From assembly GCA_018064665.1 (NCBI GenBank), contig JAGHUV010000014.1, positions 81,043-145,042 of the forward strand: a stretch of DNA of 64,000 nt. Direction: 5' to 3'. Position 1 is the first letter of the stretch, and each line of letters begins with the position of its first letter. Position numbers and translations under genes: made by a program. Shown one piece after another: positions 8,069 to 26,913 of the stretch. The stretch comes from Candidatus Crickella caballi. GTDB taxonomy: Bacteria; Bacillota; Clostridia; Peptostreptococcales; Anaerovoracaceae. Below the pieces are notes generated by a model. That model searched no databases and was not told where the DNA came from. It saw only the letters and a list, made by a program, of their open reading frames with translations.

Positions 8069-9088
8069 ATGGAATTTTACGAAGTAATAAGTAAACTTAA
8101 TACAAATGCCGAGAATCACATGTTTACAGTGTGCTCAGGCGAGCACATCGGAGAGAAGATGATCACATCTTCGGAAGGAACAGTGTGGATGAGTGATAAA
8201 AGCGGCTATTTCAGTATACATTCTGAAGATGTGATGACAGCTGCTAACAATAAAGTGACAGAGATTGATGGAGTTAAGGTTTACTCCGAACTTCTCGGCA
8301 ATAAGGACGAGCTTGTGATCTGCGGAGCAGGGCACGTTTCGATGCCTGTAATTGATCTGGCCAAAACACTGGGATTTCGAGTAGTTGCAATTGATGACAG
8401 AGAACAGTTTGTCAGCAACGCTATTAAGCATGGAGCGGATGAGGGAATATGCACCGGCTTTTCGGAGGCATTGCCAAACATACCGGGGAGTCTTGATACG
8501 TATTTTGTCATCGTTACCAGAGGTCACAAATATGACTCGGATTGTCTGCTCGAGATAGTTAAGAAACCACATGCATATATTGGAATGATTGGAAGCAGAC
8601 GCAAGATAGGAATGGTAAGAGATTTCCTTATCGCCAATGATGTACCTGAAGCTGTGATAGACTCTGTACATATGCCGATCGGACTTGATATCGGAGCTGA
8701 GACACCTGAGGAAATCGCGGTTTCGATTCTTGCGGAGATAATTGGAGTTAAAAATACCGTAAAAAGAAACAGCGGATTCTCGGGTCCGCTGCTGGATGCT
8801 CTTATAAATGATGGAAGAGGACCTGCAGTACTTGCAAGTATAGTATCCAAGAAGGGTTCTGCACCTAGAGGTGCCGGTGCGAGAATGTTATGCGGGCCGA
8901 ACGGGCTTCTGGCCGGAACCATAGGCGGAGGTCTTGCTGAGGCCAGAACATTAGAAAAGGCTGCCGAGATGCTAAGTCAGGACAGCCGAGAGCCTTTCGT
9001 GATACAGGTCGATATGACCGGACAGGAGATTGAAGATGAAGGAATGATATGCGGCGGCGTAATAGAGGTGCTGTTAGAGCGTGTCTAA
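8069..9088 (+). CDS. XdhC/CoxI family protein (Rossmann domain first, XdhC_CoxI domain second)
   Basis: ELVICGAGHVSMPV (Rossmann), IGMIGSRRK, then ASIVSKKGSAPRGAGARML...GTIGGG; MICGG near C-terminus. Confidence 0.88.
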   Translation: MEFYEVISKLNTNAENHMFTVCSGEHIGEKMITSSEGTVWMSDKSGYFSIHSEDVMTAANNKVTEIDGVKVYSELLGNKDELVICGAGHVSMPVIDLAKTLGFRVVAIDDREQFVSNAIKHGADEGICTGFSEALPNIPGSLDTYFVIVTRGHKYDSDCLLEIVKKPHAYIGMIGSRRKIGMVRDFLIANDVPEAVIDSVHMPIGLDIGAETPEEIAVSILAEIIGVKNTVKRNSGFSGPLLDALINDGRGPAVLASIVSKKGSAPRGAGARMLCGPNGLLAGTIGGGLAEARTLEKAAEMLSQDSREPFVIQVDMTGQEIEDEGMICGGVIEVLLERV

Positions 9089-10414
9089 GCTGTCGATATC
9101 CATTGTCTCTTCTTCGCAAGCTGCTTCAACAAGCAGAAGGTCGTCACGGTGAGCAGAGATGATCTGTCTGCCGCCGACATCGCCGGAAAGAGTCATGAGC
9201 TCATCCCTGTAACAAGACGAGAATATTTTGGGATTGCACATCCTTCCTTGCCATGCAAGTGAAACGATGCCTGCAGTCCCTTTTTTGTATGCCTCAGTCA
9301 GAGCTTCAATACTTGAGTTAGTAAGACCCGGCTGGTCGCATACGCAGAACATATACGCATCAGCTTCTCCGGCAGCCTCGATACCAAGCTGCATGCTGTG
9401 AGATATACCGAGGTCAGGCCTTTCATTAATAACCACATCATAGTCCGGCACCAGCGCCGACACTTCATCGTATTGAGTGACGATTATCTTCTTAAACCAA
9501 TCCGAGGAGTTGACGGCATCAAGCACACCGGATATCATCGGACGTCCGTCATACATAATATGCATAAGCTTATTGCTTCCAAATCTCACACTGTTGCCGG
9601 CAGCCTCAAGTATTACAGCAATGCGTGGCTCACAGGAGTCAGGAAGAAGTGTTCCCCAGGCACTCTGTATGCCCGATACGGCAAGCATTTTCTGCAGCTT
9701 ACGAGCTACAGCCTGAAGCTTTTCGTTGTCTGCCTGGTTGAGGAAAACGCGATATTCACCACGGAATCCTTTGGCACCACCGTCAGGCGATGCAAGTACA
9801 GCACGCATGAATGTTTCATCAACAGTATCTCTGTAGATATTATCTGGAACTACATCGGCACAATACATGACGTCCTGAGTATTTTTACCAAATGCGGATA
9901 AACCTGTAACACATACTGTTATATCAGTGCAATCGGGAATTACCGGTTCGTGCTCCGACGGATATTTGAAAGGCATGTGACGAGAGCCGTCTGCTTCTAC
10001 AAGAATAACATCGGCAGCCGTATAGATATAATCCATTATTTCAGATGACGGCATAATTACTTTGCGCGGGTTATCCGGATCTGTTGCTGCAACAAAAACT
10101 ACTCCATGCTTCGCAAGATTATCGTTAATGTCCCGGCATAATAAGTCTGCCGAATCTACTGAATTCTGTATAAGCGAAACTACATCGATGTAAGGATTAA
10201 ATATCTCATCCGAAGTAGAGTAGGGATGTCGCATGTGGGTGGTGGTTGTCACGATAACACTCTTGCCTGATTCAGCAAGCTGCTTAGCCCACGCAAAAAT
10301 GAGAGAGGTCTTGCCGCCTGCACCGACTACGCTTATTACAGCATGATCAGGAAGTTCGAGCCTTAGAGCCTCTGAGATGCTGCTTTGTATACCTTTTAAA
10401 TTCCATGTCTTCAT
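9074..10414 (-). CDS. YqeC-like selenium cofactor protein fused to MocA-like molybdenum cofactor cytidylyltransferase
   Basis: N-term SVVGAGGKTSLIFAWAKQL + VTTTTHM (YqeC); C-term ILEAAGNSVRFGSNKLM ... CDQPGLT ... GDVGGRQII (MocA). Confidence 0.88.
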   Translation of the reverse strand: MKTWNLKGIQSSISEALRLELPDHAVISVVGAGGKTSLIFAWAKQLAESGKSVIVTTTTHMRHPYSTSDEIFNPYIDVVSLIQNSVDSADLLCRDINDNLAKHGVVFVAATDPDNPRKVIMPSSEIMDYIYTAADVILVEADGSRHMPFKYPSEHEPVIPDCTDITVCVTGLSAFGKNTQDVMYCADVVPDNIYRDTVDETFMRAVLASPDGGAKGFRGEYRVFLNQADNEKLQAVARKLQKMLAVSGIQSAWGTLLPDSCEPRIAVILEAAGNSVRFGSNKLMHIMYDGRPMISGVLDAVNSSDWFKKIIVTQYDEVSALVPDYDVVINERPDLGISHSMQLGIEAAGEADAYMFCVCDQPGLTNSSIEALTEAYKKGTAGIVSLAWQGRMCNPKIFSSCYRDELMTLSGDVGGRQIISAHRDDLLLVEAACEEETMDIDSLDTL

Positions 10415-11352: not shown

Positions 11353-13671
11353 ATGTCTAACAAGTACATCGGGCAAGCCGTTAAGAGGCTGGACGCTCGT
11401 GACAAGGCCATGGGTCGCATCAAATACGCAGACGATTTGTGCGATAAGGGTGCTCTGATTATAAGAGTGCTTCATTCAACTGTGGCTAACGGCATTGTCA
11501 AGAGCATTGACACGACTGAAGCAGAGAAGGTTCCGGGCGTTGTCAAGGTGTTCACGTGCTTCGATCTGAAAGAGAAGCATTATTATCCTACAGCAGGACA
11601 TCCATGGTCAACTGATCCTGCTCATCAGGACATTGCAGACCGTCTCATTATGACGGACAGACCTCTGTTCTACGGCGATGATATCGGTGCAGTAGTAGCA
11701 GAGAATGAGGTAGCAGCTTCACAGGCACTCAGCATACTTGAGAAAGCCGTTGTATATGAAGAGCTTCCGTTCGTTCTTGAAGCACAGGAAGCAATGGAGG
11801 AGGACGCACCGCTTCTTCACGAGAAGTATCCTAACAATGTACTCGGACACAGCGAGGTTCACATGGGTAACGTTGAGGAGGCTATCAAGGAGCCGGGCCT
11901 TACCAAGGTTGAAGGCTGGTACGAGACTCAGCCTGTACAGCACTGCCACATCGAGAACTTCATCTGCTATGCATATGGTGAAGGAGACAGAACTGTAATC
12001 GTATCTTCCACTCAGATTCCGCACATTGTACGCAGAGTAGTAGGACAGGCTACAGGTATGGACTGGGGCAAATTCCGTATAATTAAGCCTTACATAGGTG
12101 GAGGATTCGGAAACAAGCAGGACGTACTCTATGAGCCACTTACTGCATGGATAAGCATTCAGCTCGGCGGACGCCTGGTTAAGCTTGATGTACCTCGTGA
12201 AGAGACATTCATCTGCAACCGTATAAGACATGCCATCAAGTATCATATAACATCATGGATGAGACCTGACGGAAGCTTTGCAGCACGTACATTCAAGGCA
12301 TGGTGCAACAACGGTGCATACAGTTCACACTGCCACGCAATTGCTGCTAAGGGACTCAACGCATTCCCACAGCTCTATCCATGTGACAACTTTGACGGAG
12401 AGACTTGGACTGTATACACCAACCGCTCTGTTGCAGGTGCAATGAGAGGTTACGGTATGCCTCAGGCAAGCTATGCTTTCGAGTGCCATACTGAGGACTG
12501 CGCTAGGGCAATGGGCATGGATCCGCTGGAGTTCCGCAGACAGAATCTGATGCCTGTCGGATATTACCACGCATTCTCCAAGAACGAGCTCTATTCTGAT
12601 TCATTCAATCAGTGCTTCGATAAGGGAGCTGAGATCATCGGATACTTTGATAAGGTGGAGAAGTATAAGAACCAGACAGGAGATATCAGAAGAGGTATCG
12701 CAGTATCCACATACTGGTACAACACTGCAGTATATCCTATCGCACTTGAGACATCATCCTGCCGTATAGTTATGAATCAGGACGGATCTGTTCAGTTCCA
12801 GCTCGGAGAGACTGAAATCGGACAGGGAGCTGATACTGTTGCAGCTCAGATGATTGCTGATACAGTAGGTATTCCTCTGGACATGGTACATCCGATGTCC
12901 TGCCAGGATACAGATATAACTCCATTCGGTACAGGAGTATATGCTTCAAGAGGCACATATACTCTGGGATTCTCGATTAAGCAGACATCAATGCTTCTCA
13001 AGGAGAAGATTCTGGAGGCGGCTCATCAGTTCACACGCATGCCGGTATTCAATCTGGATATCGTAGACGGCATGATAATCAGAAAGACTGACGGACGTGA
13101 GCTTATGACAATAGGTGAGCTTGCTCTGAGCAAACTGTACACAACAGAGGGTTCACAGCATCTCACAGCTGAATCCACTTATCAGATTAAATCCAACGCA
13201 TACTCATTCGGCTGCTGCTTCGCAGAGGTTGAGGTAGATATTCCGATGTGCCGTGCAAGACTTCTGAACATCGTAAACGTTCATGACTGCGGACAGGTTA
13301 TCAACCCTATGCTTGCCGAAGGTCAGGTGCATGGTGGACAAAGCATGGGAATCGGATATGCTTTGTCCGAGAAGCTCATGTGGGATACCAAGACAGGTAA
13401 GCCACTCAACAACAATCTGCTCGACTACAAGATGTCATCCTTCATGGATCATCCTAGACTCAATGCAGCATTCGTTGAAAACTACGAGCCTACAAGTGCA
13501 TACGGCACAAAGGGACTCGGTGAGCCGCCGGTATGCCCGGTAGCTCCTGCAATCAGAAATGCTATTGGACAGGCAACAGGAATCTACATCAATGAGCTTC
13601 CGCTCTCACCACACACTCTGTTCCGTGAGTTTACAGAAGCCGGCCTCATTGATGATTCGTTTGCAGAATAA
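11353..13671 (+). CDS. xdhA: xanthine dehydrogenase-like molybdenum-binding subunit (XdhA)
   Basis: aldehyde oxidase/XDH hammerhead and Mo domains (PYIGGGFGNKQD, GYGMPQ, GETEIGQGADT, GTKGLGEPPVCP); order matches E. coli xdhABC. Confidence 0.9.
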   Translation: MSNKYIGQAVKRLDARDKAMGRIKYADDLCDKGALIIRVLHSTVANGIVKSIDTTEAEKVPGVVKVFTCFDLKEKHYYPTAGHPWSTDPAHQDIADRLIMTDRPLFYGDDIGAVVAENEVAASQALSILEKAVVYEELPFVLEAQEAMEEDAPLLHEKYPNNVLGHSEVHMGNVEEAIKEPGLTKVEGWYETQPVQHCHIENFICYAYGEGDRTVIVSSTQIPHIVRRVVGQATGMDWGKFRIIKPYIGGGFGNKQDVLYEPLTAWISIQLGGRLVKLDVPREETFICNRIRHAIKYHITSWMRPDGSFAARTFKAWCNNGAYSSHCHAIAAKGLNAFPQLYPCDNFDGETWTVYTNRSVAGAMRGYGMPQASYAFECHTEDCARAMGMDPLEFRRQNLMPVGYYHAFSKNELYSDSFNQCFDKGAEIIGYFDKVEKYKNQTGDIRRGIAVSTYWYNTAVYPIALETSSCRIVMNQDGSVQFQLGETEIGQGADTVAAQMIADTVGIPLDMVHPMSCQDTDITPFGTGVYASRGTYTLGFSIKQTSMLLKEKILEAAHQFTRMPVFNLDIVDGMIIRKTDGRELMTIGELALSKLYTTEGSQHLTAESTYQIKSNAYSFGCCFAEVEVDIPMCRARLLNIVNVHDCGQVINPMLAEGQVHGGQSMGIGYALSEKLMWDTKTGKPLNNNLLDYKMSSFMDHPRLNAAFVENYEPTSAYGTKGLGEPPVCPVAPAIRNAIGQATGIYINELPLSPHTLFREFTEAGLIDDSFAE

Positions 13672-13694
13672 TGCGGTGAAAGGAGACAGCAGAT

Positions 13695-14582
13695 ATGTAT
13701 GATATTAAAGCTTTATATGAAGCTGAAAGCGTAGAACACGCTGTACAGTTGCGTCAGGAACATCCGGAAGCCCAGATACTTGCAGGCGGTTCGGACGTGC
13801 TGGTGCAGATCAGAGAAGGAAGAAGAGCAGGCTGTGAGTTCATAAGCATATATATGCTCGATGAACTTAGAGGCGTAAGCATCGATGAGGAAGAGAACAT
13901 TCGCATCGGTTCGCTGACAAGCTTCTCCCATATTACTAAGGATCCAATAATTCAGAAATATATCAACGTGCTCGGCGAGGCAGTCGACATGGTCGGCGGA
14001 CCTCAGATCAGAGCAATCGGAACTATCGGAGGTAACACCTGTAACGGAGTTACTTCGGCAGATTCCGCTTCGACTCTTATGGCTTGGGATGCAATCATCG
14101 AGCTGACAGGAGCAAACGGAGTAAGAAGAGTACCTATTAAGGACTTCTATATCAAGGCTAAGGTTGTAGACATCAAGCCTGACGAAATTCAGACAGCAAT
14201 ACTGATTCCTAAGGCATCATATGAAAACTGCTTTGGTCACTATATCAAGTATTCAATGAGAAATGCCCTCGATATCGCTACAACAGGCTGCTCTGTCAAT
14301 GCAGTTCTCAGCGCTGACAAGAAGAGCTTTGAACGCGTACGCATCGGATACGGTGTTGCAGCACCTATCCCTGTAAGAGCATATACAGCTGAGGAGTTTA
14401 TCAAGGGTAAGGAAATTACCGAAGAAAACATTAAGAAGTTTGCTGAGACTGTACTCGAGGACATCAATCCAAGAGACAGCTGGAGAGCCGGAAAAGCACT
14501 CAGACGCCACATCTCGGTAGTAATGGCTGAGAGAGCACTGAAGGAGTGCGTAGAACTTGCGGGAGGTGAGATCAATGGATAA
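13695..14582 (+). CDS. xdhB: xanthine dehydrogenase FAD-binding subunit (XdhB)
   Basis: ILAGGSDVLVQIREG, IRAIGTIGGNTCNG. Confidence 0.9.
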   Translation: MYDIKALYEAESVEHAVQLRQEHPEAQILAGGSDVLVQIREGRRAGCEFISIYMLDELRGVSIDEEENIRIGSLTSFSHITKDPIIQKYINVLGEAVDMVGGPQIRAIGTIGGNTCNGVTSADSASTLMAWDAIIELTGANGVRRVPIKDFYIKAKVVDIKPDEIQTAILIPKASYENCFGHYIKYSMRNALDIATTGCSVNAVLSADKKSFERVRIGYGVAAPIPVRAYTAEEFIKGKEITEENIKKFAETVLEDINPRDSWRAGKALRRHISVVMAERALKECVELAGGEING

Positions 14583-15126
14583 TCAATACAAGGTAGTTCA
14601 CTGCACCATCAACGGCAAGGAGGTTTCCCAGATCGTAGACGTAAGAGCTTCTCTTACAGATATGCTCAGAAACGATTACAGACTGACATCAGTTAAGAAG
14701 GGCTGTGAAGTAGGAGAGTGCGGAGCATGCACCGTAATCATCAATGGCGAGAGCTTTAATTCCTGCATCTATCTGGCTGTATGGGCTGAGGGTAAGGAAA
14801 TATGGACTCTTGAAGGTCTGACAGGTCCGGGAGGCGAGCTTTCCGACATTCAGCAGGCATTCATCGATGAAGGAGCTATCCAGTGCGGCTTCTGCTCACC
14901 GGGCTTCATACTGACCAGCTGGGAGATAGTAAATTCAGGCAGAGAATATACTGATGATGAGCTGAGAAAGGCTCTGTCAGGACACCTCTGCAGATGTACG
15001 GGATATGAGAACATATTCCGTGCTGTTAAGAAAACAATGCTGAGACGCCTTGGCAAGAACGAAGAGGCAGAATTGGTTAATTCGCAGGGTATCACCGAGT
15101 ATCCTGATCCTATGCCATTCAAATAA
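14575..15126 (+). CDS. xdhC: xanthine dehydrogenase [2Fe-2S] subunit (XdhC/YgeU)
   Basis: GCEVGECGACTV, QCGFCSPG, LCRCTGYE - all eight cluster cysteines present; ATG 14575 overlapping xdhB stop. Confidence 0.92.
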   Translation: MDNQYKVVHCTINGKEVSQIVDVRASLTDMLRNDYRLTSVKKGCEVGECGACTVIINGESFNSCIYLAVWAEGKEIWTLEGLTGPGGELSDIQQAFIDEGAIQCGFCSPGFILTSWEIVNSGREYTDDELRKALSGHLCRCTGYENIFRAVKKTMLRRLGKNEEAELVNSQGITEYPDPMPFK

Positions 15127-15142
15127 GAAAAGGAGAATTATT

Positions 15143-15928
15143 ATGGCAAAGACACTGCTGATGGCTAAGAATGCGGCCGAGGCAATTGATGCTAAGATAG
15201 CGTCAGCGGCCTTCCTTGCAGGCGGTACAGAGGTTAATCGTCTGGGCTCGACTGTTGAAGCCGAAACACTGATATCACTTAAGAAATGTGAGGGACTTAA
15301 CAGCATTAAGAAGGATGGAGACAAGGTCCATATCGGTTCTATGTGCACTTTCCAGGACATAGTTGAATCCGAGGATGTTCCTGCTTATCTGAAAGAAGCA
15401 GCTCTGTTCATGGCTTCACGCACTAAGCGCAATATGGCTACGATCGGAGGAAATATTGCAGCACGAAGAAGCGATTCATATCTGCTTCCTGTTCTGTGCG
15501 CTGTAGATGCTGAGCTAAGCTTACTCACCGGGGATCTTGAGGAGAGTAAGAATATCAACTTATACATTAATGAAGAAAATGATGACAGCTTAATTACGGG
15601 AATTACTGTTCCTGAAAGTGTACAGGTAGCTTCCAAGCGCTATGCCAACACAGCGCAGAGCCATGCTGTGATCACTATGAGCGCAGCATCAACAGCTGAA
15701 TGCGTAAAGCTTGCAGTTGCTGTTAAGAACACAGGCATCTTAAGCTTTAATCTGTCATCAAGCGGCAGGCTGACTGAAGAGGCTGCAGTAGCCTTCTTCA
15801 AGAATTATGAGATCAAGGACATTGAGGATGATATGTTCGGAAGCGTGGATTATAAGCGCTATCTTCTCGGTATTACAGCATATGATCTGTGCAAACAGCT
15901 CATCGCTGAGTCAGGAAAGGAGGTATAG
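15143..15928 (+). CDS. ygfM: FAD-binding subunit of molybdenum hydroxylase (YgfM-like)
   Basis: AAFLAGGTEVNRLGS, NMATIGGNIAARRSDSYLLP; ATG 15143 after aggag. Confidence 0.85.
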   Translation: MAKTLLMAKNAAEAIDAKIASAAFLAGGTEVNRLGSTVEAETLISLKKCEGLNSIKKDGDKVHIGSMCTFQDIVESEDVPAYLKEAALFMASRTKRNMATIGGNIAARRSDSYLLPVLCAVDAELSLLTGDLEESKNINLYINEENDDSLITGITVPESVQVASKRYANTAQSHAVITMSAASTAECVKLAVAVKNTGILSFNLSSSGRLTEEAAVAFFKNYEIKDIEDDMFGSVDYKRYLLGITAYDLCKQLIAESGKEV

Positions 15929-15930
15929 GC

Positions 15931-18810
15931 ATGATCAATCTTACTATTAACGGAAAAGCAAGGTCATTCGATGTAGACCCTACTATAAGACTTCGCGAGC
16001 TGCTGCTTAAGAACGGCAATTTCGCAGTAAGAGACAGTGACGATGCAGAGGGATTCTGCGGAAGTGACACCGTCATTATGGATGGTATTCCTGTATTCTC
16101 AAATCTCGTTCTTGCGGGAGAGGCTGACGGAAGTGAGATAAGAACTCCTGACAGTCTTGGCAACTCGGTTGACCTGACGATAGTGCAGCAGGCACTTATT
16201 GACGCCGGAGTAGTTCAGAGCGCGTACAATTCACCTGCAGCAGCACTGCTGTTCACATGGCTGTTCGAGAAGAATCCGAATCCTTCAAGAGAAGATGTCA
16301 AGGATATTCTGTCCGGATTATTCATAAGAGATGCCGGATATGAGCATTACTATCTCGCTGCAGAGCTCATCAAGGAGAAGCTTAACGGCGGAGAATACAA
16401 GACAGAAATCGCACCTGAATTCAGACCTGAGCTTAAGTCTGTAGGCAAGGTAATGCCAAAGATCGACGCACCTCAGCTGGTATCAGGCGAGAGAGCTTTC
16501 GTAGAGGATTACGTGGATGCAGATACCTGCTACATGGTAGTTCTGCGTTCGCCATACGCAAGTGCATATGTTAGCAAGATCGATACATCCAAGGCAGAAG
16601 CGATCCCGGGCGTTGTTAAGGTAATTACCGCATACAACTGTCCTGATGTTACTTACATGTCTGCAGGACAGGGCAATCCTGAGCCTTCACCACACGACAG
16701 AAAGCTTCTGAACAAGAAGGTAAGACACGTCGGCGACAGAGTTGCGGCTGTCATTGCCGAAACTCTTGAGGATGCTATTAAGGCAAGAGACCTCATCGAA
16801 GTTGAGTACGAGCCTATGGATGCGGTATTCACAGTAGAAGAGGCTATGACTGAGGGTGCACCACTTGTTCACAACGGCAAGGTAGAGTACGTTTCGGGCG
16901 CACCTGACGATCTTGACGATTACAACAAAAAGCTCTCAGGAGATGAGAGAGAAGGCAAGGTAGTATATCAGTTCCCACTGCAGGGAGATATTCTGCATAA
17001 CGTAGCTGCAGCTAACCATGGCGGTATCGGTGATGTGGACAAAGCTTTTGAGGAGGCTGATGCTGTAGTGGAGGCGACTTATCAGACAAGCCAGATCCAG
17101 CATACACCGCTCGAGACACATATCTGCTACTCCAAGCTTGAGAACGGCAGACTTATCGTTTATGCGAGCACTCAGGTCCCATATCATGTACGCCGCATCG
17201 TAAGCTGGGTTACCGGACTCTCCGAAAACAAGATCCACGTTATCAAGACGAGGGTTGGAGGAGGCTACGGCTCCAAGCAGGATATTCTGGTAGAGGATCT
17301 TACTGCATATGCAACATTTGCAACAGGCAGACCTGTACTGTATCACAATACTCGTGAGGAGGAGTTTATAGCTAACTCCACAAGACATCCTATGCGTGTT
17401 CATGTCAAGATGGGAGGTAAGAAGGATGGTACTATTACAGGTATCTACATGAAGGTGGATGCCAACACCGGTCCTTACGGAAACCATGCTTTGACAGTAC
17501 CTATGAACAGCTGCTCCAAGACACTGCCACTGTTCAAGTGCGACAACATGAAATATGACCTTACGATCTACTACACCAATACGCCACCTGCAGGAGCATA
17601 TCAGGGCTATGGTACACCTAAGGGTACTTACGGACTGATGATGGCCATGGGCGAGCTTGCTGACAAGCTCGGTGTAGATTATAAGGACATGGTTATCAAG
17701 AACCATGTCGAAGAAGGATATATGCTGGAGATCCTGAAGGGACTCGGCGAAGGTCGTGAAGGCAATGTAGTACCTGTTGGTTCATGCGGACTCAGAGAAG
17801 CTGTCGAGAAGGGCTGCGAGATGATCGAATGGGGCAAGCGCGAAGAAAGCGATGACCCTGACTGGAAGATCGGTAAAGGCTTCGCAATGATAATGCAGGG
17901 CTCAGGACTTCCTGGACTCGACCATGCTAATGCTGTAGCCAAGCTCGAGATGGACGGTTCTATCATCGTACTCTCAGGTGCTGCAGATATAGGAACAGGT
18001 CTTGATACAATTATTGCCAAGGTTACAAGCGACATTCTGCAGGTACCTATGGACAAGATAACTGTTGTATCAGGCGATACTGATTCGGGTGCATTTGATA
18101 CCGGTTCATACGCATCATCAGGTACATTCTTCAGCGGTAACGCTGCAGTTGTAGCTGCTAACAATCTCAAGGAAAAGATTCTTGACGAGGCTGCATTCCA
18201 GCTCGAAGAGGATGTAGCAGATATGGAGCTTGTATGGCCGTCAGAGGTTCGTTCGACAAAGACGGGCGCATCACTCAGCTTCTACGACATCATACATACA
18301 GCAACCTCAGGTACAGGACGCGGACATCTTATCGCTCCCGGCAGCTTCACAACAGCAGCATCTTCAGTACCTTACGGAGCACACTTTGCTCAGGTTGCAG
18401 TAAATGTACGTACAGGTGAGATCAAGGTTCAGAAGTTCTATGCACTTCAGGATGCAGGAACTCCTATCAACCCTGAGGCTGCACTTTGCCAGATGTACGG
18501 TGCTTCGCTTAAGTCCATCGGACACTCGCTGTACGAGGACATGAAGCTTGACAAGGACGGTCGCTGCATCAACGCCAATATGACAGATTACGGCGTACCG
18601 ATGATATCCGAGCAGCCTGAAGACTTCAAGGCTGTACTGATTGACGTCAATGACGCTCACGGTCCATTCGGTGCTAAATCCATATCCGAGATCGCTTGCA
18701 ACGGAGCAGCTCCTGCAATCGGTAACGCTATTCACGATGCGTGTGGAGTATGGCTCAGAAGCTGGCCGATGACACCTGAGAAGGTTCTGAAGGCTTTGGG
18801 TAAGATTTAA
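15931..18810 (+). CDS. xdhD: XdhD-like molybdenum hydroxylase with degenerate [2Fe-2S] domain
   Basis: Mo domains (RVGGGYGSKQD, GAADIGTGLDT, GPFGAKSISEIACNGAAPAI); N-terminal ferredoxin-like domain lacking most ligand Cys. Confidence 0.9.
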   Translation: MINLTINGKARSFDVDPTIRLRELLLKNGNFAVRDSDDAEGFCGSDTVIMDGIPVFSNLVLAGEADGSEIRTPDSLGNSVDLTIVQQALIDAGVVQSAYNSPAAALLFTWLFEKNPNPSREDVKDILSGLFIRDAGYEHYYLAAELIKEKLNGGEYKTEIAPEFRPELKSVGKVMPKIDAPQLVSGERAFVEDYVDADTCYMVVLRSPYASAYVSKIDTSKAEAIPGVVKVITAYNCPDVTYMSAGQGNPEPSPHDRKLLNKKVRHVGDRVAAVIAETLEDAIKARDLIEVEYEPMDAVFTVEEAMTEGAPLVHNGKVEYVSGAPDDLDDYNKKLSGDEREGKVVYQFPLQGDILHNVAAANHGGIGDVDKAFEEADAVVEATYQTSQIQHTPLETHICYSKLENGRLIVYASTQVPYHVRRIVSWVTGLSENKIHVIKTRVGGGYGSKQDILVEDLTAYATFATGRPVLYHNTREEEFIANSTRHPMRVHVKMGGKKDGTITGIYMKVDANTGPYGNHALTVPMNSCSKTLPLFKCDNMKYDLTIYYTNTPPAGAYQGYGTPKGTYGLMMAMGELADKLGVDYKDMVIKNHVEEGYMLEILKGLGEGREGNVVPVGSCGLREAVEKGCEMIEWGKREESDDPDWKIGKGFAMIMQGSGLPGLDHANAVAKLEMDGSIIVLSGAADIGTGLDTIIAKVTSDILQVPMDKITVVSGDTDSGAFDTGSYASSGTFFSGNAAVVAANNLKEKILDEAAFQLEEDVADMELVWPSEVRSTKTGASLSFYDIIHTATSGTGRGHLIAPGSFTTAASSVPYGAHFAQVAVNVRTGEIKVQKFYALQDAGTPINPEAALCQMYGASLKSIGHSLYEDMKLDKDGRCINANMTDYGVPMISEQPEDFKAVLIDVNDAHGPFGAKSISEIACNGAAPAIGNAIHDACGVWLRSWPMTPEKVLKALGKI

Positions 18811-18861: not shown

Positions 18862-20202
18862 ATGCTTTTAATTGGAAATGGTCAAGTTATTACCAGAGAT
18901 TCCGATAAGCCGTACTTCAAAGACGGTGCTGTCGTAATCGACGGCGAGCTTATCAAGGATGTCGGTACTCTGGAAGACATGAAGAAAGCTTATCCTGATG
19001 CTGAGTTTGTAGATGCTAAGGGCGGCATTATTATGCCTGGTCTTATCAACGCTCATACTCATATTTATTCAGGACTGGCAAGAGGTCTTGCAATCGACGG
19101 TCACAATCCTACTAACTTCTTTGAGATTCTGGACGGAATGTGGTGGAACATCGACAGACATCTGACAATCGACGGAACTAAGGCAAGTGCTTATGCTACA
19201 ATTCTCGACTGCATCAGAGACGGTGTTACTACTATCTTCGATCACCACGCAAGCTTCTGCGAGATTCCGGGATCACTCTTCGCAATTAAGGATGTTGCGA
19301 AAGAACTCGGTATGAGATCCTGCTTATGCTACGAGGTATCCGAGAGAGACGGAGCAGAGAAAACTGCACAGGCTATCCAGGAGAACGCTGACTTTGCAAA
19401 GTGGGCTAAGGACGAGGATGACGACATGATCAAAGCCATGTTCGGAGGCCACGCACTTTTCACTATTTCAGACAAGACCTTCGAGAAGATGGTTGAGGCA
19501 AATAACGGTATGACAGGATTCCATATCCACATTGCAGAGGGTATGAACGATGTATATGACAGCCTTAGAAACTACGGCTGCAGACCTGTTAACAGACTTC
19601 TCTACAACGGACTGCTTGGCGAGAAGACTCTGCTCGGTCACTGCATCCACGTAAGCCCGGCTGAAATGGATATCATCAAGGAAACAGGCACAATGGTTGT
19701 TAACAATCCTGAATCCAACATGGGTAATGCAGTAGGCTGCGCACCTGTACTTCAGATGATGGCTAAGGGCATCAAGGTAGGTATGGGAACAGATGCTTAC
19801 ACTCACGACATGCTCGAGAGCCTTAAGGTATTCCTTATTATCCAGAGACACAATGCTGCAATGCCTAACGTTGCATGGTGCGAGGGCACTGACATGCTGT
19901 TCAACAACAACAGAGATATTGCCGCTAAATACTTCAAGAAGCCTCTCGGAATCCTGAAGGAAGGCGCTGCTGCTGACGTTATCGTTATGGATTACAAGCC
20001 GTTCACTCCGTTCTCCAACGAGAATATCGACGGACACATGATCTTCGGAATGATGGGCAAGAACTGCAGAACTACTATCATCAACGGTAAGGTTCTGTAT
20101 AAGGATAGAGAGTTCATTGGCATCGATGAAGAAGCTATCAATGCATGGACACTCGAGCAGAGCAAGAAGCTCTGGGGCGATCTCAATCACAGACAATACT
20201 AG
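18862..20202 (+). CDS. ssnA: SsnA-family aminohydrolase
   Basis: NAHTHIYSGLARG, HIHIAEG, GTDAYTHDMLES; next to ygfK as in E. coli. Confidence 0.9.
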   Translation: MLLIGNGQVITRDSDKPYFKDGAVVIDGELIKDVGTLEDMKKAYPDAEFVDAKGGIIMPGLINAHTHIYSGLARGLAIDGHNPTNFFEILDGMWWNIDRHLTIDGTKASAYATILDCIRDGVTTIFDHHASFCEIPGSLFAIKDVAKELGMRSCLCYEVSERDGAEKTAQAIQENADFAKWAKDEDDDMIKAMFGGHALFTISDKTFEKMVEANNGMTGFHIHIAEGMNDVYDSLRNYGCRPVNRLLYNGLLGEKTLLGHCIHVSPAEMDIIKETGTMVVNNPESNMGNAVGCAPVLQMMAKGIKVGMGTDAYTHDMLESLKVFLIIQRHNAAMPNVAWCEGTDMLFNNNRDIAAKYFKKPLGILKEGAAADVIVMDYKPFTPFSNENIDGHMIFGMMGKNCRTTIINGKVLYKDREFIGIDEEAINAWTLEQSKKLWGDLNHRQY

Positions 20203-20213
20203 GAGGTTACAGA

Positions 20214-23210
20214 ATGAGCGATATTATGAGACCTATTTCGTACGAACACCTGCTTAATTGGGTGCTTGACGAATACAACAAGAGCGGAAGCATCTTCGGT
20301 GTTTCCAAGCTCGTAAAACGTACAGATGGAGAAGCTCTTCCTATTTTCGAAGAGAAGATCGAGACTCCTTTTGGTCCTGCTGCAGGTCCTAACACTCAGC
20401 TGGCACAGAACATTATTGCATCTTACTGCGCAGGCTCAAGATTCTTCGAGCTCAAGACAGTTCAGGATATGGACGGTGCTGAACTCGCTGCATGCGTAGC
20501 TAAGCCATGTATCACAGCTCACGATGAGTGCTACAACTGCGAGTGGTCAACAGAGCTTTATGTTCACCAGGCTTTCGACGAGTATGTTAAGGCTTGGTTT
20601 GTCTGCAAGATCCTTGCTAAGGAACTCGGACTTGGCGATCCTGACGGATTCGTATTCAACATGTCAGTAGGATACGACCTCGAGGGTATCAAGAAGGACA
20701 AAGTTAATACATATATCGACGGCATGAAGGATGCTTCCAATACTGAGGTATTCAAGAACGCAATGGAAGTAACTCTTCAGGCTGTTAAGGACGGAAAGTT
20801 CAAGAACGTTGATGAGGCATTTGTTAAGTCAATTCCTTCAAGAATTTCCGATTCTATTACAGAGTCAACTCTTCACGGTTGCCCACCTGATGAGATCGAG
20901 AGAATCGCTTCTTATCTCATCAAGGAGAAGAACCTTAACACTTTCATCAAGTGCAACCCGACTCTTCTCGGATATGAGTTCGCAAGAGAACGCCTTGATT
21001 CACTCGGATTTGATTACATCGCATTTGATGATCATCACTTCCTTGAGGATCTTCAGTGGGCAGATGCAGTTCCTATGTTCGAGCGTCTTCAGGCACTTTG
21101 CGATGAGAAGGGACTTGAGTTCGGCGTTAAGCTGACTAACACATTCCCTGTAGACGTTAAGGCAGGAGAGCTCCCATCAGAGGAGATGTACATGTCAGGA
21201 AGAAGCTTATTCCCTCTGACAATCGAACTCGCAAGAAGAATCACAAAGCAGTTTGACGGAAAGCTCAGAATCAGCTTCTCCGGCGGAGCAGATTATTTCA
21301 ATATTAAGGAAATCTTCGAAGCAGGTATCTGGCCTATCACAATGGCTACAACTGTTCTTAAACCAGGTGGATATCAGAGAATGTCACAGATTGCAGACAG
21401 ACTCGGAAACTGCGGAAGCAAGAAGTTTGACGGCGTAGACCTCAAGCAGGTTGAAGCACTCGTAGAGATGTCACAGGGCGAGCGTAACCGCAAGCCTATC
21501 AAGCCTCTCCCGGAGCGCAAGAACGGTGAAGAACTCCCTATGTTCGATTGCTTCACAGCTCCATGCAGCGGCGGATGCCCAATCAACCAGGATATTCCTG
21601 CATACCTCGAGGCTATGGAAGAGGGAAGAAGCGAAGATGCTCTCAACATTATTCTTGAGAAGAACGCACTTCCATTCACAACAGGAACAATTTGTCCTCA
21701 TACCTGCGCTGACAGATGTATGAGAAACCACTACGAGACAGCTCTGAAGATCAGAGAGGTCAAGCTGATGGCAGCTGAGGATGCATATAAGGCAGTACTT
21801 CCTACACTCAAGGCAGGCGCAGAGCTTGACAAGAAGGTTGCTGTTATCGGTGGCGGTCCTGCAGGACTTGCTACAGCATCATTCCTCTCACGTGCAGGCG
21901 CAGACGTAACTGTATTTGAGAAGAACGACAAGATGGGCGGAGTACCTCGCTATGTAATTCCTGGCTTCAGAATCAGTGAAGAAGCTATTGATAACGACGT
22001 TGCTCTTTGCTCAGCTTATGGCGCAAAGATGGTAACAGGCAGAGAGATCAAGAGCGTTCAGGAGCTCGCTGATGAGGGATTCACAGATGTTGTTGTATGC
22101 ATCGGAGCATGGGCACACGGACGCAAGGCTCTCAAGTATGGAGAAGCACTTGATGCTCTCGAGTTCCTTGCAGCTGTTAAGGCAGCACCTGGTTCTGTAG
22201 ATCTTGGCACTGACGTTGCTGTTATCGGCGGCGGAAACACTGCTATGGACGTTGCTCGTGCTGCTAAGGTTCAGCCTGGCGTTGAGAACGTAAGACTGGT
22301 TTACAGAAGAAACAGAAGAAATATGCCTGCAGATGAGGAAGAGCTGCAGATGGCACTGGATGACGGTGTTGAGTTCATGGAACTCCTTGCACCAGAAGGC
22401 GTTGAGAACGGCATGCTTAAGTGCGAAGTTTGCGTACTTGGCGAGCCTGATGAGAGCGGCAGACGTTCACCTGTAGGAACAGGCAAGTTCGCAGAGGTTC
22501 CTGCAACAGCTGTAATCGCTGCAGTAGGTGAGCAGATCAAGGCTGATATCTATGAGGCTGCAGGCGCTGAGCTTGATGCCAAGGGAAGACCTGTTGTTGA
22601 TGAGAAGACTCTTATGACAACTGTACCCGGACTCTACGCTGCAGGAGACTGCCGCAGAGGTCCTGCAACTGTAGTTAAGGCTATCGCTGATGCTCAGGCA
22701 ATTACTGCTGCAATCACAGGAGTATCCTTCGACAAGTACGAAGCAGCTAATGCAGAAGGCAAGATGGACAAGCTCATCGACAGAAAGGGCAACCTCGCAG
22801 ATCCTCCTGCAGACAAGGCTGATGACCGTTGCCTCGGATGCTCAACAGTATGTGAAGTATGTGCAGACGTATGTCCTAACAGAGCTAATGTTGTTATCGA
22901 GGTACCTGGACTTTCAAAGGCTCAGATTCTGCACGTTGACGGCATGTGTAATGAGTGCGGCAACTGCGCTATTTTCTGCCCATACAGCGGTCGTCCTTTC
23001 AAGAACAAGTTCACACTCTTCTGGAGTGAGGAAGACTTTAACGATAGTGAAAACAATGGATTCCTGCCACTTGAGGGAACTAAGGTGCGTGTAAGACTGT
23101 TCGGAGAGATTTCAGAGCATGATATCGCTGACTCTGCATGCAGTCTGCCTACCGGTGTTCTGTCATTCATTAAGGCAGTAGAAGAGAATTACGGATATCT
23201 TATAGGATAA
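20214..23210 (+). CDS. ygfK: YgfK-like putative selenate reductase / Fe-S flavoprotein oxidoreductase subunit
   Basis: DHOD-like N-terminus, GltD-like (VIGGGPAGLATASFL; VIGGGNTAMDVARAA), C-terminal ferredoxin CxxC clusters; ATG 20214 after aggagg. Confidence 0.92.
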   Translation: MSDIMRPISYEHLLNWVLDEYNKSGSIFGVSKLVKRTDGEALPIFEEKIETPFGPAAGPNTQLAQNIIASYCAGSRFFELKTVQDMDGAELAACVAKPCITAHDECYNCEWSTELYVHQAFDEYVKAWFVCKILAKELGLGDPDGFVFNMSVGYDLEGIKKDKVNTYIDGMKDASNTEVFKNAMEVTLQAVKDGKFKNVDEAFVKSIPSRISDSITESTLHGCPPDEIERIASYLIKEKNLNTFIKCNPTLLGYEFARERLDSLGFDYIAFDDHHFLEDLQWADAVPMFERLQALCDEKGLEFGVKLTNTFPVDVKAGELPSEEMYMSGRSLFPLTIELARRITKQFDGKLRISFSGGADYFNIKEIFEAGIWPITMATTVLKPGGYQRMSQIADRLGNCGSKKFDGVDLKQVEALVEMSQGERNRKPIKPLPERKNGEELPMFDCFTAPCSGGCPINQDIPAYLEAMEEGRSEDALNIILEKNALPFTTGTICPHTCADRCMRNHYETALKIREVKLMAAEDAYKAVLPTLKAGAELDKKVAVIGGGPAGLATASFLSRAGADVTVFEKNDKMGGVPRYVIPGFRISEEAIDNDVALCSAYGAKMVTGREIKSVQELADEGFTDVVVCIGAWAHGRKALKYGEALDALEFLAAVKAAPGSVDLGTDVAVIGGGNTAMDVARAAKVQPGVENVRLVYRRNRRNMPADEEELQMALDDGVEFMELLAPEGVENGMLKCEVCVLGEPDESGRRSPVGTGKFAEVPATAVIAAVGEQIKADIYEAAGAELDAKGRPVVDEKTLMTTVPGLYAAGDCRRGPATVVKAIADAQAITAAITGVSFDKYEAANAEGKMDKLIDRKGNLADPPADKADDRCLGCSTVCEVCADVCPNRANVVIEVPGLSKAQILHVDGMCNECGNCAIFCPYSGRPFKNKFTLFWSEEDFNDSENNGFLPLEGTKVRVRLFGEISEHDIADSACSLPTGVLSFIKAVEENYGYLIG

Positions 23211-24013: not shown

Positions 24014-24027
24014 TATGGAGGATAGTT

Positions 24028-26913
24028 ATGCCATATACATTCACTGTAAATGGAATAACAAGAACAACTGAAGAAGTAAAACCACTGCTGAGATACCTGA
24101 GAGACGACCTTAAGCTGTATTCGGTTAAGGACGGATGCTCAGAGGGTGCCTGCGGAACCTGTACGATCATAGTTGACGGTCGTGCTATGAGGTCCTGCGT
24201 TCTTTCGACCCAGAAAGCAGAAGGTAAGAACATAGTAACTGTAGAGGGCTTAACTCTTAAGGAGAAGGAAGCGTTTGTTTTCGCCTTTGGCTCCTGCGGT
24301 GCAGTCCAGTGCGGATTCTGCATACCGGGTATGGTTATGTCAGCCAAAGCTCTTATAGATGTTAATCCTGACCCGACTGACGAAGAAATCAAGAAGGCTA
24401 TCAGAGGTAATATCTGCAGATGCACCGGATACAAGAAAATCGTTGCCGGAATTAAGAGAGCAGCTGCACTCCTTAGAGGAGACGAAGAGATTAAATTTGT
24501 AAGCCAGTTCGCTGATGAAGATGAGTCAGGCGAAGTAGAGTATATTTCGGAAGTAGGAACACGATATGATCCTGCAATTGCTTCCGGAATTGCCAATTAT
24601 AAGAATTACGAAGAGAAGAATTACGGCAGAGCTTCGATATACGGAGTAGGTCAGAATGTATTCAGAGTTGATGTAAGAAAGAAAGTGCTCGGATACGGCA
24701 AATATCCTGATGATATAGGTCCTGAATATTTCGTTCCTGCCGACAAGCCTGAGCAGATAATGGAGCTTGCAGGCTGGAGCAGAGAGGAACTTGATAAGGC
24801 TCTTGAAAGAGGAGATATCAAAGCAGGTGCGACGATTCACCGCTCAGGTGAACACGGCTGCAATGTATGCACTATCGTTGATCCGGATATGCCTCCGATG
24901 GCATATGCTTCTGCTGTTCGCTCAGATTATGCGAGAGCCGTAGTAAAGAAGATTATCAAAGCCAAGGCTGAGTCACTTCCGGGAGTACTCGGAGTACTGA
25001 CTGCGGAGGATGTGCCGAACAACAAGGTCGGACATATCCAGCAGGACTGGGATGTCTTCATCGCTGAAGGGGACACTACAAGAATGGTAGGAGATGCTAT
25101 CTGCCTTGTAGTTGCAGAATCGCCATACATACTTGAAGAGGCTAAGAAGCAAATAGAAATAGAGTACGAGGTTCTGGAACCCGTAAGAAATATCGCTGAA
25201 GCCAAGGCGGAGGATGCACCATTCATCCACGAAGGCGGAAATCTCTGTCAGCAGAGACACGTTGTAAGAGGAGACGCCGCCAAGGCTTTGGAAGAAGCTG
25301 CTTATACGGCCAGCGCAGACTTCCATACGCCTTTCACGGAGCATGCATTCCTTGAGCCTGAATGCGCAGTTTCATTCCCATATAAAGATGGAGTAAAGAT
25401 ACTCTCCACCGATCAGGGCGCATACGATACTCGTAAGGAAACTCTGATAATGATGGGATGGCAGGATACTCCTGACAGAGTCGTAGTTGAGAACCAGCTT
25501 ATCGGCGGAGGTTTTGGCGGCAAGGAGGATGTAACTGTTCAGCATATCAGTGCACTTGCTGCTGTAAAATTCGGAAGACCTGTTAAGATCAGGTTAAGCA
25601 GATCCGAGTCGCTGAAAGTACATCCAAAGCGTCATGCCATGGATGGAAGCTTCACCATAGGCTGTGATGGGAACGGTATACTTACAGCGCTTGATTGCGA
25701 GATCAATTTCGATACAGGCGCATATGCCAGCCTTTGCGGACCGGTTCTTGAGAGAGCCTGCACTCACAGTGTAGGACCTTACAACTACCACAATACAGAT
25801 ATCAGAGGCTACGGCTATTATACGAACAACCCTCCTGCAGGAGCATTCAGAGGATTCGGAGTATGCCAGAGCCAGTTTGCACTCGAATCGCTTCTCAACA
25901 TTCTGGCCGAGAAGGTTGGAATCAGTCCATGGGAGATAAGATATAGAAATGCTATCGAGCCGGGTATGGAGCTTCCTAACGGACAGATAGCGGATGTTTC
26001 TACGGCTCTCAAGGAGACACTGGAAGCTGTTAAGCCGTACTTCGACAATGCACCTTCTGACAGAGTCGGAATCGCTTGTGCAATGAAGAATGCAGGCGTA
26101 GGCGTAGGTCTTCCGGACAAGGGCAGAGCTAAGCTGGTAGTCGAGGATGGAGTTGTGTATATCTATACAGCAGCTTCAGATATAGGTCAGGGATGCCAGA
26201 CTGTATTCTGTCAGGACGTCGCACAGGCTACAGAGCTTCCGATAACCCGCATCAGAAACGGTATTGCCAATACAGAGAATTCGCCTGATTCGGGAACTAC
26301 TTCAGGTTCACGTCAGACGCTGCTTACAGGCGAAGCTGTAAAGGGTGCTGCCAAGCTTCTCAGAAAAGCAATGGATGAGAACGGTATCATCGAAGACAAT
26401 ATAGAGAGACTCAACGGAAGAGAATTCTTCTATGAGTATTTTGAACCGACAGACAAGCTTGGTTCAGACAAGCCTAACCCTAAGAGCCACATCGCATACG
26501 GTTATGCTACCAATGTAGCTGTGCTCGATGAAGACGGAAAGGTTACGGACATCTATGCAGCCTTCGATGCGGGTAAGGTGGTTAATCCTTTGTCCATGTC
26601 AGGACAGATTGAAGGCGGTGTACTCATGGGAATGGGTTATGCTGCAACTGAGAACTGGCCTCTTAAGGACTGCGTGCCTACTGCCAAGTACGGTACACTC
26701 GGTCTTCTTAGAGCTACCGATATTCCGGATATTCATGCTATTCATGTTGAGAAGGAATGGCTTCTGGAGACAGCATACGGTGCTAAGGGAATAGGAGAGA
26801 TCACAACTATCCCTGCAGCTCCAGCCATTGCGGGCGCATATTACGCAAGAGACGGAGTGCTCAGGACAACACTTCCAATGGAGAACACATATTACAGGAA
26901 ACCGAAGAAGTAA
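24028..26913 (+). CDS. xdh: selenium-dependent xanthine dehydrogenase
   Basis: N-term 2Fe-2S (CSEGACGTCT, QCGFCIPGM, NICRCTGY) fused to Mo domains (LIGGGFGGKEDVTVQH, GAFRGFGVCQSQF, AYGAKGIGEI). Confidence 0.9.
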   Translation: MPYTFTVNGITRTTEEVKPLLRYLRDDLKLYSVKDGCSEGACGTCTIIVDGRAMRSCVLSTQKAEGKNIVTVEGLTLKEKEAFVFAFGSCGAVQCGFCIPGMVMSAKALIDVNPDPTDEEIKKAIRGNICRCTGYKKIVAGIKRAAALLRGDEEIKFVSQFADEDESGEVEYISEVGTRYDPAIASGIANYKNYEEKNYGRASIYGVGQNVFRVDVRKKVLGYGKYPDDIGPEYFVPADKPEQIMELAGWSREELDKALERGDIKAGATIHRSGEHGCNVCTIVDPDMPPMAYASAVRSDYARAVVKKIIKAKAESLPGVLGVLTAEDVPNNKVGHIQQDWDVFIAEGDTTRMVGDAICLVVAESPYILEEAKKQIEIEYEVLEPVRNIAEAKAEDAPFIHEGGNLCQQRHVVRGDAAKALEEAAYTASADFHTPFTEHAFLEPECAVSFPYKDGVKILSTDQGAYDTRKETLIMMGWQDTPDRVVVENQLIGGGFGGKEDVTVQHISALAAVKFGRPVKIRLSRSESLKVHPKRHAMDGSFTIGCDGNGILTALDCEINFDTGAYASLCGPVLERACTHSVGPYNYHNTDIRGYGYYTNNPPAGAFRGFGVCQSQFALESLLNILAEKVGISPWEIRYRNAIEPGMELPNGQIADVSTALKETLEAVKPYFDNAPSDRVGIACAMKNAGVGVGLPDKGRAKLVVEDGVVYIYTAASDIGQGCQTVFCQDVAQATELPITRIRNGIANTENSPDSGTTSGSRQTLLTGEAVKGAAKLLRKAMDENGIIEDNIERLNGREFFYEYFEPTDKLGSDKPNPKSHIAYGYATNVAVLDEDGKVTDIYAAFDAGKVVNPLSMSGQIEGGVLMGMGYAATENWPLKDCVPTAKYGTLGLLRATDIPDIHAIHVEKEWLLETAYGAKGIGEITTIPAAPAIAGAYYARDGVLRTTLPMENTYYRKPKK

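Follow-up and report, generated by a model that had tools for sequence, protein, structure and literature searches.

XdhD of a urate-degradation gene cluster retains a ferredoxin-like domain in which nearly all of the [2Fe-2S] cluster ligands have been replaced

Reading along the forward strand of the window—the whole 64,000-nucleotide stretch analysed here, from a genome assembly of 1.45 Mb—we see the run xdhA-xdhB-xdhC-ygfM-xdhD-ssnA-ygfK (Table 1). Beyond it lies a gene for a selenium-dependent xanthine dehydrogenase (XDH). The product of this gene (24022–26913; TIGR03311), with its ligand cysteines complete, is a third enzyme of the XDH family at this locus, standing beside XdhABC and XdhD. 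On the reverse strand (9074–10414) a single 446-aa open reading frame resembles YqeC fused to a MocA-like nucleotidyltransferase.

Table 1. Features of the xdhD locus, in window coordinates
Feature	Position	Strand	Basis
xdhA and xdhB, canonical xanthine dehydrogenase	11353..14582	+	NF043082, NF043083
xdhC, two-[2Fe-2S] subunit of XdhABC, 8/8 Cys present	14575..15126	+	NF043084, 252 bits; alignment
ygfM, FAD-binding partner, C-terminal CO_deh_flav_C not recognised	15143..15928	+	TIGR03312 top match (under cut-off); PF00941, 2e-24
xdhD, fused pseudo-[2Fe-2S]/molybdopterin subunit, 959 aa	15931..18810	+	TIGR03313, 1226.7 bits (cut-off 1101.9)
Clusterless ferredoxin-like and four-helix domain, XdhD residues 1–165	15931..16425	+	PF01799 passes, PF00111 lost; AF2 fold TM ~0.8 to 3HRD_D/4ZOH_C
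Ex-plant-type cluster loop, XdhD residues 33–47, VRDSDDAEGFCGSDT	16027..16071	+	C1 to D37, C2 retained as C43, C3 to D46
Fourth plant-type ligand site of XdhD, N58	16102..16104	+	
Ex-alpha-cluster loop, XdhD residues 95–102, VQSAYNSP	16213..16236	+	C5 to S97, C6 to N100
Ex-alpha-cluster CxC loop, XdhD residues 130–140, LFIRDAGYEHY	16318..16350	+	C7 to I132, C8 to D134
XdhD hammerhead and two Mo-cofactor domains	16426..18807	+	Pfam Ald_Xan_dh_C, MoCoBD_1, MoCoBD_2, all far over cut-off
ssnA, urate-pathway aminohydrolase	18862..20202	+	BLAST match to E. coli SsnA; same cluster
ygfK, Fe-S flavoprotein, same pathway as ssnA/xdhD	20214..23210	+	TIGR03315, 1333.8 bits

The clustering of xdhD with ygfM, ssnA and ygfK is the gene context of the urate reductase, and the window protein belongs to TIGR03313. 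Both the Mo-cofactor domains typical of the xanthine oxidase family and a FAD subunit with AGGT/TIGGN motifs (YgfM) are present, as are the Mo-site Gln and the catalytic Glu near the C-terminus that mark its molybdenum hydroxylases; the active-site residues Q450, E607 and E920 are all retained, Q450 in 100/100 of the XdhD sequences that we fetched and E920 in 97/97 of those in which the position is present. XdhD is a variant within this family and no new kind of system; its probable role is that of Mo subunit in the enzyme that reduces urate anaerobically and opens uric-acid breakdown.

The first 165 residues of XdhD align to XdhC from the same operon (30% identity), and also to the N-terminus of the selenium-dependent XDH. 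The original prediction held that the residues of the fold remain here, a view borne out by a phmmer match to 3HRD_D (E 2.5e-22) and by the structure that AF2 predicts for the domain (pLDDT 86, the ex-cluster loops scoring lowest), which agrees with the FeS subunits of nicotinate dehydrogenase (3HRD_D) and glyceraldehyde oxidoreductase (4ZOH_C) at TM scores of 0.80–0.83. The first of these, a small subunit and the closest solved sequence to this region as well as a top fold match, differs in binding two clusters and in being a separate chain. The full-length model of the XdhD chain alone, of modest confidence (pLDDT 78, loops again lowest), matches Desulfovibrio gigas aldehyde oxidoreductase (1SIJ) end to end (TMt 0.85); this best full-length structural match likewise joins Fe-S and Mo domains in a single chain, but has its clusters present and its FAD subunit absent. 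AF2 was given an alignment that omits the E. coli row. The predicted model thus has the fold of a [2Fe-2S] ferredoxin-like domain but not the cluster ligands; PF01799 (Fer2_2) still recognises the region at 41.5 bits against a cut-off of 30.3, and PF00111 (Fer2) no longer matches.

Working through the ligand positions from the N-terminus, those of the plant-type cluster (C1–C4) are occupied by D37, C43, D46 and N58, and those of the alpha-helical cluster (C5–C8) by S97, N100, I132 and D134; C1 falls on D37 when aligned to intact orthologues and on D38 when aligned to XdhC alone, an Asp either way. Alignment therefore upholds the prediction that about seven of the eight ligand cysteines are replaced, its coordinates, frame and motifs all being as claimed. 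Two [2Fe-2S] clusters on eight Cys are a trait of the xanthine oxidase family; the window protein has one of the eight, and the E. coli orthologue none (D-A-D-S and S-N-S-D). The E. coli motifs quoted previously (VRNSDDGFGFAGSD, QSGYNDP and SRDAGW) are exactly those of MG1655 xdhD.

This pattern extends across the 100 fetched XdhD sequences (six or more being repeat fetches of a gene already in the set), none of which has a Cys at the seven positions. Five ligand positions are fixed (98–100%) as D, D, S, N and D: D37 in 99/99, D46 in 99/99, S97 in 98/99, N100 in 99/99 and D134 in 100/100. Position 58 is N in 88/100 and D in 8, position 132 is I in 93/100, and position 43 varies between C (47), A (45) and T (6). 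One of the two search patterns used included RDAG, a possible bias, but a model-based TIGR03313 search of Spirochaetota genomes recovered 12 further orthologues that are also clusterless, in agreement with the pattern-found set. Nor did we find compensating cysteines, which would have spoken against the prediction: the sole invariant Cys of the XdhD alignment is C619, and no other conserved new Cys appears in the 100 XdhD or in 77 YgfM sequences. Since intact orthologues also have C619, it is not a compensating ligand. Assembly or sequencing error and local decay are ruled out by the fetched sequences together with E. coli, where at least 80% of the xdhD segment is found in 5147/5426 complete genomes, every match at an identity of at least 90%.

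At the level of sequence, then, the ligand loss is confirmed as real, and is stronger than first claimed. From the missing ligands we infer that XdhD lacks its [2Fe-2S] clusters; a search of the published literature found no metal analysis of the protein. The RefSeq/NCBIfam name for TIGR03313, ‘Mo/Fe-S-binding subunit’, is, judged by these ligand positions, wrong for most members examined.

Might the vacated pockets hold something else? One reading has them bind another redox cofactor or a metal through the fixed Asp, Ser and Asn residues, thus rebuilding a relay; the replacements are indeed fixed and polar, with further fixed Asp, Arg and Tyr residues nearby, more than a filled-in pocket seems to require. 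We consider this improbable nonetheless, as the pockets contain no known motif, the loops are modelled with the lowest confidence of the protein, and hard oxygen ligands are ill-suited to a low-potential carrier.

A second reading, that the domain has simply been drifting under relaxed constraint once out of use, can draw on its evolving some two to three times faster than the Mo domain, and on an identity to E. coli XdhD of 44% as against 53% for the Mo domain. Pairwise dN/dS values, however, are ~0.05–0.07 for the N-terminal domain (dS being near saturation) and ~0.02 for the Mo domain, indicating strong purifying selection on the former; of its 165 positions, the 25 most conserved include five of the eight ligand positions, so that the ex-ligand loops are among its most conserved stretches, and the fixed replacements themselves already disfavour drift. 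Furthermore, 15 of the 16 domain sites fixed differently in clusterless and intact XdhD fall within the three Cys-loop segments. We regard drift as very improbable; together with the existence of intact sister proteins, these observations sustain the proposal that the loss is a conserved, selected trait rather than decay.

These intact sisters comprise four Spirochaetota proteins (L133, L138, L143 and L144), recovered by the same TIGR03313 search and encoded in ygfK-ssnA-ygeY-ygfM-xdhD-ygeW operons, and a Cetobacterium protein (L256) that scores just below the TIGR03313 cut-off. All five share family, urate operon and YgfM-type neighbour with the window XdhD, but have 8/8 Cys and a YgfM whose C-terminal domain is recognisable. 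(The 1230-aa open frames at L133 and L138 are not YgfM–XdhD fusions; the YgfM match there belongs to an ORF of its own, read in a different frame.) L256 lies on a 0.7 Mb plasmid of Cetobacterium somerae, in a urate-degradation cluster where a PreA-like protein occupies the place expected of YgfK. In a tree built from the Mo domain only, Cetobacterium is the first branch of the XdhD clade (100/97 for the rest), which makes the intact state ancestral; with the four Spirochaetota orthologues also intact, the loss is, as read from this tree and alignment, derived as well as maintained. A weakly supported branch (69/36) sets all the clusterless rows apart; that these share identical replacements speaks for a single loss, and one event within the clade appears most likely. 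Among stand-alone Fe-S subunits encoded beside unfused relatives, all 28 complete ones have eight Cys, a further ORF being truncated.

More distant fused homologues from Chloroflexota (36–38% identity) occur in four states: intact, plant-type ligands lost, alpha ligands lost, and both lost. The plant-type set is lost in seven sequences (FGDEHGLSGADT), the alpha set in L204 (QSGYDAP, SRETGY), and both in L191, L195 and L200; the GCCCCCCC strings of L190, L196 and L198 reflect an alignment shift, and these sequences are intact. Parsimony requires three changes per cluster on the tree, and L191, L195, L200, L203, L204 and their relatives represent independent loss with convergent Asp, Ser and Glu replacements. 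Some of the intact enzymes lie within urate clusters alongside ssnA; the neighbours of the clusterless genes revealed no common partner. At one locus (L209, 10993–12462) a 490-aa protein, in which a FAD domain is joined to both [2Fe-2S] domains, adjoins a fused Mo/Fe-S enzyme, and an ORF at L208 (11802–13340) resembles it by length and match. The varied break points—FAD-side only, Mo-side only, or both—fit a dispensable wire better than a single re-engineered one.

We turn now to the partners of XdhD. In the 18 clusterless genomes searched, YgfM and YgfK are present in 18/18, and ygfM immediately precedes xdhD on every contig that extends far enough. The AGGT/TIGGN motifs of YgfM are retained in 77 clusterless-type sequences (GG in 77/77), and the C-terminal CO_deh_flav_C domain falls under the Pfam threshold in 8/8 clusterless-type partners, in two by a narrow margin (22.8 for E. 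coli YgfM and 24.8 for that of L075, against 25.5), while exceeding it in 3/3 intact-type ones. This co-change of YgfM with XdhD suggests that the electron arm changed as a whole.

Stand-alone Fe-S subunits that look intact are also encoded in all 18 genomes, frequently within the operon itself, which raises the idea that clusters are supplied in trans, an XdhC-type subunit or another Fe-S protein (YgfK, a ferredoxin) feeding electrons to XdhD; the FAD/[2Fe-2S] partner at L209, and its likeness at L208, count in favour of this reading, as does the presence of YgfK in all 18. Against this, where gene order is readable the stand-alone subunits sit in complete XdhABC-type trios, and so already have a partner; the fused N-terminal domain of XdhD would fill the place that such a subunit needs; and, in the purification described in the main text of PMC12507026, the co-purifying protein is of ~30 kDa only. 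We think supply in trans decidedly unlikely.

That purification concerns the closest characterised system, E. coli XdhD (YgfN, b2881) with YgfM, an orthologous pair in the same ygfM-xdhD arrangement (52% identity for XdhD) and with the same ligand loss, save that the window protein retains one lone ligand-position Cys, C43. According to the main text, E. coli XdhD, co-purified with the ~30 kDa protein read as YgfM and given NADH, converts urate to 2,8-dioxopurine, and deletion of xdhD leaves no yanthine seen (PMC12507026). The activity is reported there for the E. coli enzyme only, the window XdhD being known from its sequence, and was measured at 10 uM enzyme with kinetics not given; a further paper describes the kinetic parameters as still to be determined, and lists the electron donor of the related XdhAC enzyme as an open question (PMC12990295). 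The band alone cannot separate YgfM (259 aa) from XdhB (292 aa), and we found no control lacking NADH in the main text of PMC12507026. There R. capsulatus XDH serves as the template for a model of the XdhD–YgfM complex in which NADH enters at YgfM; the words ‘cysteine’ and ‘2Fe-2S’ are absent from that main text, and our full-text searches of the open-access literature found no paper mentioning the missing ligands.

XDH itself (R. capsulatus 1JRO, or the window XdhABC) has in common with XdhD the Mo domain, active-site residues, FAD subunit family and N-terminal fold, but carries two [2Fe-2S] clusters on eight Cys where XdhD has at most one such Cys. With the ligands absent, XdhD would have no FAD-[2Fe-2S]-[2Fe-2S]-Mo relay, and the earlier statement that the normal intramolecular path is unusable follows. 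Our overall account, to which we assign a probability of about three in four, is that the N-terminal domain is a clusterless scaffold and the relay is bypassed. The ancestor of XdhD would have been a protein of the xanthine dehydrogenase family with two [2Fe-2S] clusters, later lost; the domain may since have served to pack on the Mo domain and to carry YgfM, with catalysis proceeding around the relay.

Electrons would then reach the Mo centre by some other route. YgfM could dock as in XDH and its electrons tunnel directly from FAD to Mo across the clusterless domain, at a rate low but adequate for an NADH-dependent reductase; the retained FAD motifs, the constant position of ygfM upstream of xdhD and the NADH-dependent activity reported at 10 uM enzyme (PMC12507026) all favour such a route. 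The divergence of YgfM's C-terminal domain counts against it. In XDH structures the two clusters separate the FAD and Mo sites, leaving a gap over the usual tunnelling limit, and direct transfer, though a serious contender, seems to us on balance unlikely.

Within the scaffold account we lean, tentatively and at less than even odds, towards the Mo site as the place of redox exchange: where the substrate binds, the centre would trade electrons with a donor that comes in directly or with another purine, such that the internal wire would become dispensable. Saying this, the kept FAD motifs of YgfM and the NADH-driven activity pull against a dispensable wire; taken at face value, the reduction reported with NADH and the partner read as YgfM in the main text of PMC12507026 needs a path from FAD to Mo and so counts against a purely Mo-site exchange.

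An extreme version, which we offer as speculation and think improbable, would have one Mo site oxidise one purine and reduce another, with no external electron wire. It might, say, oxidise xanthine at C8 and reduce urate at C6, so that in net terms xanthine is isomerised to 2,8-dioxopurine while urate cycles. Pyrogallol-phloroglucinol transhydroxylase, a member of the DMSO reductase family, carries out a redox exchange of two substrates at a single Mo site; that family is unrelated, and the analogy is no more than that. If true, two-purine exchange would bring a transhydroxylase-type mechanism into the xanthine oxidase family and account for the repeated loss of clusters.

XdhD probably opens a pathway by which uric acid is removed in the gut, one that is being engineered for gout probiotics. 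The published working model has the FAD of YgfM feed Mo in the manner of R. capsulatus XDH, and so depends on a relay for which these sequences lack the means. Because intact and clusterless orthologues occur as a matched set in one type of operon, what the relay does in a molybdenum hydroxylase is open to direct test.
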